Shown: one piece after another, positions 37,420 to 40,102 of the stretch
Layout: each line of letters opens with the position of its first letter
Numbering within the stretch: position 1 is the first letter of the stretch
The notes under the pieces: generated by a model
Told to the model about the DNA's origin: nothing
The model's database searches: none
The model's input: the letters and a program-made list of their open reading frames with translations, nothing else
Assembly: GCA_014584375.1 (NCBI GenBank)
Contig: JACTMZ010000139.1
Location: forward strand, 1 to 40,102
From: Verrucomicrobiota bacterium
GTDB lineage: Bacteria; Verrucomicrobiota; Verrucomicrobiia; Chthoniobacterales; JACTMZ01
Direction of reading: 5' to 3'
DNA: 40,102 nt
Position numbers and translations under genes: made by a program

Positions 37420-39300
37420 ATGAAACCTCTTTCTCCCCAGGAATGGACGCGCATTGTTCGTCCCGGCGGACGGGTGTTCATCGGCGGTGGCGCTTCGGTT
37501 CCCTTCGCCTTGGTGGAGTCATTTCTTTCCGCAGCCGACAGCTACAAGGATGTGGAAATCGTCCATATTTACGGATTGGGGGATTCGCCGTGGATTGATC
37601 CGAAATATGACGGCATTATTCGCACCAACTCGTTTTTTTTGACACGCCGTTTGCGTGAGGCCGTGGAGCGCGGTCAGGCGGACTACACGCCCTGTCCGCT
37701 TTCCGAAATCGCCTCGCTGTTCCGCAGAGGCCCGCTGCCATTGGATGTGGCGCTCATCCAAGTGAGTCCGCCCGATGCCGATGGATATTGTTCGCTGGGA
37801 GTCAGTGTGGATGTCGTGCGTTCCGCCGCAGACCACGCCCGCACAGTGGTGGCGCAAATCAATTCCAAAATGCCCAAAACCTGCGGCGATTCCAAAATTT
37901 CCGTCCGCAAAATCGCCCACTATATTGAATGCAGCGCCGACCTTCCCGAGGCCGAAGCGGCGGAAACCGATGAACGTCACATCCGAATCGGACGCTATGC
38001 CGCGCAATTGATTGAGGACGGGGCGACGATCCAACTTGGGCTGGGCAACACACCGCAGGCCGTGGCGCGCGCCCTTAAAAAACACCGGCATCTTGGCATT
38101 CACAGCGGATTGTTTAACGACGCGTTGATGGAGTTGGTAAAATGTGGCGCAGCGGACGGCTCAATGAAGTCGTTTCATCCCGGGAAAATCATTGCCAGCC
38201 ACATTGTGGGAAGCCGCAAACTTTACAAATTTGTGGATCGCAACGAAGCCTTTGAGATGCGCCCGAGCGAGTGGGTTTACGATCCCGTCCGCATCGCCCG
38301 CAACAATCGAATGACATCCATCAACGGAGCACGGGAAATTGATCTCACCGGGCAGGTTGTCCGAGACTCCAGCGGACATCGCTTTTACGGCGGCATTGGG
38401 GCGTTGCAGGATTTTGTTCGCGGCGCGGGACGAAGCAAGGGCGGGCGTCCGATCATCGTTCTGACCTCGACCTGCGACGAGGGCATTCATTCACGGATTG
38501 TCGCGGATCTTCAGGCCGGCAGCGGGGTCAGCACCGGGCGCGGTGATGTACATTATGTGGTGACTGAATTCGGCGTGGCTGCATTGCATGGGCGCAGCAT
38601 TCGCGAACGCGTGGCGCGCCTGGTGGAAATTGCCCATCCCACCCATCGGGAAAAACTTCTGGCGGGCGCAAGAACGCGGGGATGGTTGCCAAAATTTTTC
38701 ACGATGCCGCCGGCTGTCACGGCGATCACCGGAGGAAACGTGGAAAGCGCCTGGATCAAATTTCACAAAAAGCGCTTTTTATTGCGACCCCTGTTTCCCA
38801 GCGACATGTGGAAAATACAGGAATTCTTCTACACACATGATGAAGAGACCGTGCGTTTGCGCTACGGATATCAACGCAATCGCATGACAGGAGAATCGGC
38901 ATACAAACTGGCGGCGGTTGATCAGCGCCGGGATCTTGCGTTTGGATTGTTCGAGGAGGCGCATGAGCAGGAGGAATTGCGTGCGATTGGACGTTATTAC
39001 CTTGATCCCGGAGGCAAATCCGCCGAAGTGGCCTTCGTGGTGCATGAGGATTCCCGCAAACTCGGCATGGCGGGATTTCTTTTGGGAAAGCTCGCGCAGA
39101 TCGCCCGCACGCGCGGGATCACCCATTTCTGGGCAAGCGTGCTTCCGGAAAACCGGGCGATGAAGAACCTTTTTCTTGCGGTCGGCGGACGCAATGTGTC
39201 GGACGACGGCGGAGAGGAGGAAATTCACGTTCCCCTGGAGGGAATATTGCGGTTGCGTCCGCAATTTTTAAAACGGAAACGAATTGTCGGCGACGAATGA
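37420..39300 (+). CDS. acetyl-CoA hydrolase/CoA-transferase domain fused to C-terminal GNAT acetyltransferase
   Basis: CoA-transferase motifs GGGASVPFALVESF, LIQVSPPDADGYCSLGVSVD, FYGGIGALQDFVRGAGRSKGGRPIIVL. C-terminal GNAT: IGRYYLDPGGKSAEVAFVVHEDSRKLGMAGFLLGKLAQIARTRGITHFWASVLPENRAMKNLFLAVGG. Confidence 0.9.
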   Translation: MKPLSPQEWTRIVRPGGRVFIGGGASVPFALVESFLSAADSYKDVEIVHIYGLGDSPWIDPKYDGIIRTNSFFLTRRLREAVERGQADYTPCPLSEIASLFRRGPLPLDVALIQVSPPDADGYCSLGVSVDVVRSAADHARTVVAQINSKMPKTCGDSKISVRKIAHYIECSADLPEAEAAETDERHIRIGRYAAQLIEDGATIQLGLGNTPQAVARALKKHRHLGIHSGLFNDALMELVKCGAADGSMKSFHPGKIIASHIVGSRKLYKFVDRNEAFEMRPSEWVYDPVRIARNNRMTSINGAREIDLTGQVVRDSSGHRFYGGIGALQDFVRGAGRSKGGRPIIVLTSTCDEGIHSRIVADLQAGSGVSTGRGDVHYVVTEFGVAALHGRSIRERVARLVEIAHPTHREKLLAGARTRGWLPKFFTMPPAVTAITGGNVESAWIKFHKKRFLLRPLFPSDMWKIQEFFYTHDEETVRLRYGYQRNRMTGESAYKLAAVDQRRDLAFGLFEEAHEQEELRAIGRYYLDPGGKSAEVAFVVHEDSRKLGMAGFLLGKLAQIARTRGITHFWASVLPENRAMKNLFLAVGGRNVSDDGGEEEIHVPLEGILRLRPQFLKRKRIVGDE

Positions 39301-40102
39301 AGCGGGAAGGGAAACGCAGAATTGGCATTCATTATGACGCCCGATACGAGCGGCATGATACCGGGCCGTTCCATCCCGAGTCCGTCGAACGTTATCGGGC
39401 CTTGACCGCCGCGCTGGAGGATTTGCCGGAATCCTTCGTTAAAATCCCCGGGCGTGTTGCCACGGCGGAGGAAATTAAGCTGGCGCATGCTCCGTGGTAT
39501 TTCGACATCGTTCGCCAGGACACGGAAAACTTTGCCGAACAACTTCGCACCGGTGACACCATGATTTGCTCGGAGAGCTGCGATGTGGCACTGGAGGCTT
39601 GCGGCGCCGTGCTGAACGCCGTTGATTTCGTCATGCGCGGAGAATTGGACTCCGCGTTTTGCGCCGTACGTCCGCCGGGACATCATGCGACATCCGAGCG
39701 CGGCATGGGTTTTTGTATTTTTAATAATGTGGCGGTCGCCGCCAAACACCTTCAAAAAAAGCACGACGTCAAACGGGTCGCCATCGTGGATTGGGATGTT
39801 CACCATGGCAATGGCACGGAGGCGATTTTTTTGGAGGATCCCAATGTTCTCTATATTTCGCTGCACGAGCAGGGAATCTATCCGTTTACGGGCGGGGAAA
39901 ATGAGGTCGGCAAGGGAGCGGGCAAGGGGACAACGTTGAATATTCCGCTGGCGAAAAATTCCGATGGCGATGCGGCCCTGCTTGCCTGGGATGAAAAAAT
40001 CACTCCGGCGATTGACGCCTTTCAACCCGCGTTTTTGCTGATTTCCGCAGGATTCGACGCTCGTGAACATGATCCGGTCGGCGATTTGCGCTGGAAGGAT
40101 GA
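39297..40102 (+). CDS. histone deacetylase family protein (class II HDAC/AcuC/AphA-like), 3' truncated by window end
   Basis: Not in ORF track because no stop occurs in the window. Manual translation MKREGKRRIGIHYDARYERHDTGPFHPESVERYRAL ... AVRPPGHHATSERGMGFCIFNNVAVAAKHL ... VAIVDWDVHHGNGTEAIFLEDPNVLYISLHEQG ... LLISAGFDAREHDP. Confidence 0.93.
   Translation, partial: MKREGKRRIGIHYDARYERHDTGPFHPESVERYRALTAALEDLPESFVKIPGRVATAEEIKLAHAPWYFDIVRQDTENFAEQLRTGDTMICSESCDVALEACGAVLNAVDFVMRGELDSAFCAVRPPGHHATSERGMGFCIFNNVAVAAKHLQKKHDVKRVAIVDWDVHHGNGTEAIFLEDPNVLYISLHEQGIYPFTGGENEVGKGAGKGTTLNIPLAKNSDGDAALLAWDEKITPAIDAFQPAFLLISAGFDAREHDPVGDLRWKD

Follow-up and report, generated by a model that had tools for sequence, protein, structure and literature searches.

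The window, by which we mean the entire 40102-bp contig under analysis (C182 of genome G000), belongs to a Verrucomicrobiota genome that is 89% complete. Two overlapping genes occupy its distal end, encoding a fusion of a CoA-transferase-like (CoAT) domain with a GNAT acetyltransferase domain, followed by a deacetylase of the HDAC family:

37420..39300, + strand: CoA-transferase-GNAT fusion gene, 626 aa, ATG start (open reading frame, Pfam, structure-database sequence match)
39297..40102, + strand: class II (HDAC6-like) deacetylase gene, reaching the contig end after 268 aa (open reading frame, Pfam, PDB matches)
39297..39300, + strand: ATGA stop/start overlap between the fusion and HDAC genes (sequence)

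The end of the 626-aa fusion at 39300, the HDAC start at 39297 and the ATGA overlap agree with what the first-pass annotation described. That annotation also remarked that the HDAC was missing from the supplied list of open reading frames; the contig end, which cuts the gene at 268 aa, probably explains this. The possibility of an HDAC pseudogene was rejected, as the reading frame is interrupted merely by the contig end. Pfam analysis of the fusion identified AcetylCoA_hydro (residues 13-171), AcetylCoA_hyd_C (264-415) and GNAT (452-589), and the HDAC frame matched Hist_deacetyl at 267.9 bits. The gene upstream of the pair is fmt, and acsA is not adjacent. In the genome collection, the closest relatives carry the labels Chthoniobacterales and Terrimicrobiaceae, both within Verrucomicrobiota.

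Searches of 390 genomes from the phylum and 385 from the class, two partly overlapping sets, yielded 21 members of the window's clade. The HDAC forms a single open reading frame with the CoAT and GNAT domains in seven of them (931-956 aa), lies directly downstream or overlaps in 12, the window included, is found 2 kb downstream in one, and is absent from the vicinity in one. A second sample, obtained by scanning named genomes and sharing genomes with the 21-member set, comprised 50 loci of this type: 15 fused, 28 adjacent, one with the HDAC at 2 kb, three unlinked and three cut by a contig end. At the fused loci, all three domains are carried by one polypeptide of 902-964 aa, and Pfam confirmed each domain in all six fused proteins scanned. 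This form occurs, among others, in cultured Rubritalea, Haloferula and Coraliomargarita; the fused loci include those of Rubritalea marina, R. profundi, Haloferula luteola, H. rosea and Coraliomargarita sp. Among the split pairs, the HDAC starts within the ATGA of the fusion stop in 24 of 29, and the overlap suggests that the GNAT and HDAC genes share one operon. At the three unlinked loci (genomes G637, G653 and G654), an HDAC of the same clade is encoded elsewhere in each genome. Furthermore, pairwise identities of the CoAT-GNAT protein and of the HDAC are closely correlated over 20 taxa (r = 0.95), a value reached in none of 2000 permutations.

The adjacency of the fusion and the HDAC is therefore far beyond chance, and coincidental adjacency was rejected on the basis of the fusions and the conserved linkage. 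The first-pass annotation had stated that a lack of conserved adjacency in related genomes would refute its idea; the idea withstood this test, since the linkage is conserved, single-chain fusions are numerous and the two families diverge in parallel. No third gene, AcuB included, recurred beside the pair in the neighbourhood comparison of relatives, in which the remaining recurrent matches were shadow frames within the pair itself; a wider conserved operon was rejected accordingly. Plasmid spread and virus carriage were also considered and dismissed: neither the fusion nor the triple fusion was covered to 80% by any plasmid record, and the window protein had no match in viral contigs.

Within the fusion, the N-terminal domain presents the following features:

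37426..38703, + strand: residues 3-428, 4-hydroxybutyrate CoA-transferase-like domain lacking the catalytic Glu (Pfam, sequence and Foldseek matches)
38107..38109, + strand: Gly230 codon, at the site of the catalytic Glu of Family I CoA-transferases (RipA Glu249) (alignment)
38362..38367, + strand: Arg315-Asp316; in the Gly230 clade, Arg stands where Ala is otherwise conserved, and Asp316 is kept (alignment)

The domain matches 9vag in sequence (E 1.5e-121), and its predicted fold matches 3gk7 (Foldseek E 8.6e-46), placing it by both sequence and fold with Family I CoA-transferases of the 4-hydroxybutyrate type, but the catalytic Glu is replaced by Gly230. Enzymes of this family act through that Glu, which in RipA is Glu249, 22 residues past Val227 of the Gly-Val-Gly loop (PMC3180442). 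In the window, Gly230 aligns with RipA Glu249 and lies 22 residues past Leu208 of Gly-Leu-Gly. Position 230 is Gly in all 21 clade members, whereas the 49 other CoAT-GNAT fusions and the six stand-alone CoATs sampled all have Glu there. The Gly clade forms one side of a single branch with 100/100 support, which amounts to one change, and three substitutions near active-site motifs in the sequence, I208L, A315R and S324G, were fixed together with the loss of Glu. The domain has not decayed despite this loss: within the clade, mean pairwise identity is 63% for the CoAT domain, the best conserved of the three, against 58% for both the GNAT domain and the HDAC. The structure matches include PDB 4eub, the CoA-transferase AarC carrying E294A and solved with CoA bound; a site without the Glu can therefore still hold CoA. 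The altered active-site segment, residues 316-340, was modelled with low confidence, and an alignment-free model of a 960-aa triple fusion (pLDDT 40) was too poor for use.

Gly at this position was considered as a feature unique to the clade, an idea that was discarded because Gly occupies the catalytic column in stand-alone relatives from other phyla too, together with Glu at the Asp316 column. The scan that returned them used patterns including Gly at that site and is uninformative on its frequency. These stand-alone CoATs (loci L184-L194, from Alphaproteobacteria, Nocardia, Acinetobacter and others), which mostly have Glu at the Asp316 column, may be active. Because such relatives share the Gly, inactivity of the window's domain is something we infer. 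Lacking the catalytic Glu of its family, the domain is more likely to sense or bind than to turn over its ligand, and it may be catalytically inactive and now act as a sensor.

The C-terminal part of the fusion carries the candidate writer:

38752..39297, + strand: Pat-like GNAT domain, residues 445-626 (Pfam, PDB sequence matches)
39025..39027, + strand: Glu536 of AEVAF, at the position of the acidic residue in Pat-type acetyltransferases (alignment)
39055..39072, + strand: acetyl-CoA P-loop RKLGMA, R-x-x-G-x-A (sequence; motif per PMC8556138)

R546-KLGMA551 conforms to the P-loop pattern R/Q-x-x-G-x-G/A, and Glu536, at the position of the Pat catalytic Glu, is kept in all 70 fusions. All eight PDB sequence matches of the domain are Pat-type protein acetyltransferases (9it0/9isq, 4nxy/4u5y and mycobacterial Pat), of which 9it0 is E. 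coli PatZ. The 4nxy/4u5y entries, named acyl-CoA synthetase in the database, are what we take to be the Streptomyces PatA GNAT. Based on these resemblances, the domain likely attaches acetyl groups to proteins.

The downstream gene retains the His pair and the Asp/His/Asp Zn ligands of a class II HDAC or Zn deacetylase:

39669..39686, + strand: RPPGHH, catalytic His pair (motif alignment)
39789..39806, + strand: DWDVHH, Zn ligands Asp and His (motif alignment)
40044..40061, + strand: SAGFDA, Zn ligand Asp (motif alignment)

The RPPGHH, DWDVHHGNGT and SAGFDA motifs, which the first-pass annotation had described as intact, are all present in the window's reading frame. The region of the catalytic Tyr (GGY) lies beyond the contig end; aligned full-length relatives of the clade have EGGY there, and the catalytic motifs are found in full-length relatives. 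A full-length HDAC taken from the fused form matched single-domain HDAC6 structures at about 1e-55 to 1e-51 and bacterial HDAH enzymes at 8e-60, whereas the match to the acetylpolyamine amidohydrolase 3men_A was much weaker (E 8e-35). The HDAC thus likely removes acetyl groups from proteins. In two triple fusions of Coraliomargarita/Puniceicoccaceae (L045, L046), the HDAC domain has DVHFGNGT in place of DVHHGNGT, and a short segment following SLHE is missing.

CoAT-GNAT fusions that keep the Glu occur in other lineages of the phylum. At the Glu-type loci whose upstream genes were scanned (L060, L064, L067, L072), these genes encode ADP-forming acyl-CoA ligases that overlap the fusion or nearly so; no acyl-CoA ligase gene was found linked to the Gly-type module. 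For a minority of Glu-type fusions, an HDAC gene is found close by; most of these HDACs belong to a different class, AcuC-like by its motifs, and some lie directly downstream (L110, L114 and L118 are among the Glu-type loci). The Glu-type loci look like a second kind of acyl-CoA/acetylation operon. Additionally, two genomes of one other family (L055, L058) combine a Glu-type fusion with an overlapping downstream HDAC that is divergent and class II-like, apparently a separate linkage event. That fusions of one kind are linked to different HDACs speaks for deacetylation as a shared need.

Taken as a whole, we judge it rather probable that the two genes constitute one module for reversible protein acylation, with a dead CoA-transferase as its acyl-CoA sensor and with writer and eraser coupled or fused. 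The Pat-type GNAT would acetylate metabolic enzymes on lysine, with AMP-forming acyl-CoA ligases as the most likely targets, and the HDAC would take the mark off. The inactive CoA-transferase would stand in for the dead acyl-CoA synthetase of Pat as acyl-CoA sensor, and the ratio of writer to eraser would be fixed by translational coupling or by fusion into the 902-964-aa chain. AMP-forming acyl-CoA ligases are the likely substrates because the window's genome, at 89% completeness, encodes an MbcS/Acs-like acyl-CoA ligase, in which the motif PKTVSGKTRR occurs, and only one HDAC, with no SIR2 detected. In that genome (L197:1066-4105), the ligase gene is divergent from a gene of the acetyl-CoA hydrolase/transferase family whose YTE motif is intact. 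The first-pass annotation had envisaged a unit combining acetyl-CoA handling with acetylation and deacetylation. Given the resemblance of the GNAT to protein lysine acetyltransferases and of the HDAC to protein deacetylases, the writing and erasing of acylation is the best reading, but the acetyl-CoA handling calls for revision, as the missing catalytic Glu favours ligand sensing or binding over turnover. More tentatively, and at somewhat less than even odds in our estimation, the dead CoA-transferase would sense an acyl-CoA and shift a single polypeptide between its GNAT and HDAC activities, making the single-chain sensor-writer-eraser a further architectural type of bacterial protein acetyltransferase whose inactive CoA-enzyme sensor evolved independently of Pat.

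The CoAT domain might alternatively still be an enzyme, a transferase or thioesterase employing another nucleophile such as Asp316, with acyl-CoA turnover coupled to protein acylation and deacylation; its strong conservation, the Glu at the Asp316 column of stand-alone Gly-type CoATs and the ADP-forming acyl-CoA ligases adjoining Glu-type fusions fit this possibility. Asp316 is, however, common to Glu-type enzymes as well and so is not a new nucleophile, and the positions near the active site in the sequence (208, 315 and 324) changed together with the Glu. We regard continued catalysis as unlikely.

It is less probable still that the GNAT and HDAC have small molecules, such as polyamines or other amines, as substrates instead of proteins: HDAC-fold amidohydrolases do include acetylpolyamine enzymes, and 3men_A is among the matches, but HDAC6 and HDAH score far above it, the GNAT matches solely protein acetyltransferases, and related fusions in other lineages are linked to a different, AcuC-looking class of HDAC. 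Short gene overlaps are common in bacteria, and the pair could on that ground represent plain co-transcription of two unrelated housekeeping genes; three-domain fusions in several genera contradict this account, the neighbourhoods are otherwise unconserved, and the two families diverge in parallel, which together make it very improbable.

The reversible module proposed here joins elements with precedents, as reversible lysine acetylation by a linked GNAT and HDAC (AcuABC) and the joining of inactive CoA-enzyme domains to GNATs are already known. The open-access literature searched contained no relevant paper on a CoA-transferase/GNAT or GNAT/HDAC protein, and neither a dead CoA-transferase as GNAT partner nor a bacterial chain combining writer and eraser was found in it, which does not prove their absence. 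Compared with 4-hydroxybutyrate/butyryl CoA-transferases (RipA, AbfT), residues 3-428 are alike in sequence and predicted fold but differ in the Glu-to-Gly replacement, the altered nearby positions and the fused GNAT. The Glu-intact fusions of the phylum share the same two domains, with an HDAC linked in a minority; they differ in keeping the Glu, in the upstream ADP-forming acyl-CoA ligase of the examples scanned and in an HDAC that is usually of another class.

Like Bacillus AcuABC, the module encodes a GNAT writer together with a Zn-dependent HDAC eraser and has a candidate sensor element, which in Bacillus is AcuB. Unlike AcuABC, it has no AcuB-like (CBS-ACT) gene and no acsA alongside, its candidate sensor is in cis, its HDAC is of the HDAC6-like class II, and a single chain can carry both writer and eraser. 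What keeps acetylation and deacetylation from undoing each other is an active question in work on AcuB (PMC13121692, PMC13039410); with both activities and a candidate metabolite sensor in one protein, it could be addressed in a single purified polypeptide, and the module could be a self-contained protein-acetylation switch. The GNAT of Type I/II proteins is joined to an acyl-CoA synthetase domain that is inactive and binds acetyl-CoA (PMC8556138). The present fusion resembles these proteins (Salmonella/E. coli Pat/PatZ, Streptomyces PatA) in combining a large CoA-enzyme-derived domain, minus its catalytic residue, with a Pat-type GNAT. It differs in that this domain is a Family I CoA-transferase rather than an inactive NDP-forming acyl-CoA synthetase and in that an HDAC is coupled or fused to it, and it would be the second instance, apparently of independent origin, in which a CoA-metabolising enzyme has lost its catalytic residue while linked to a Pat-type GNAT.
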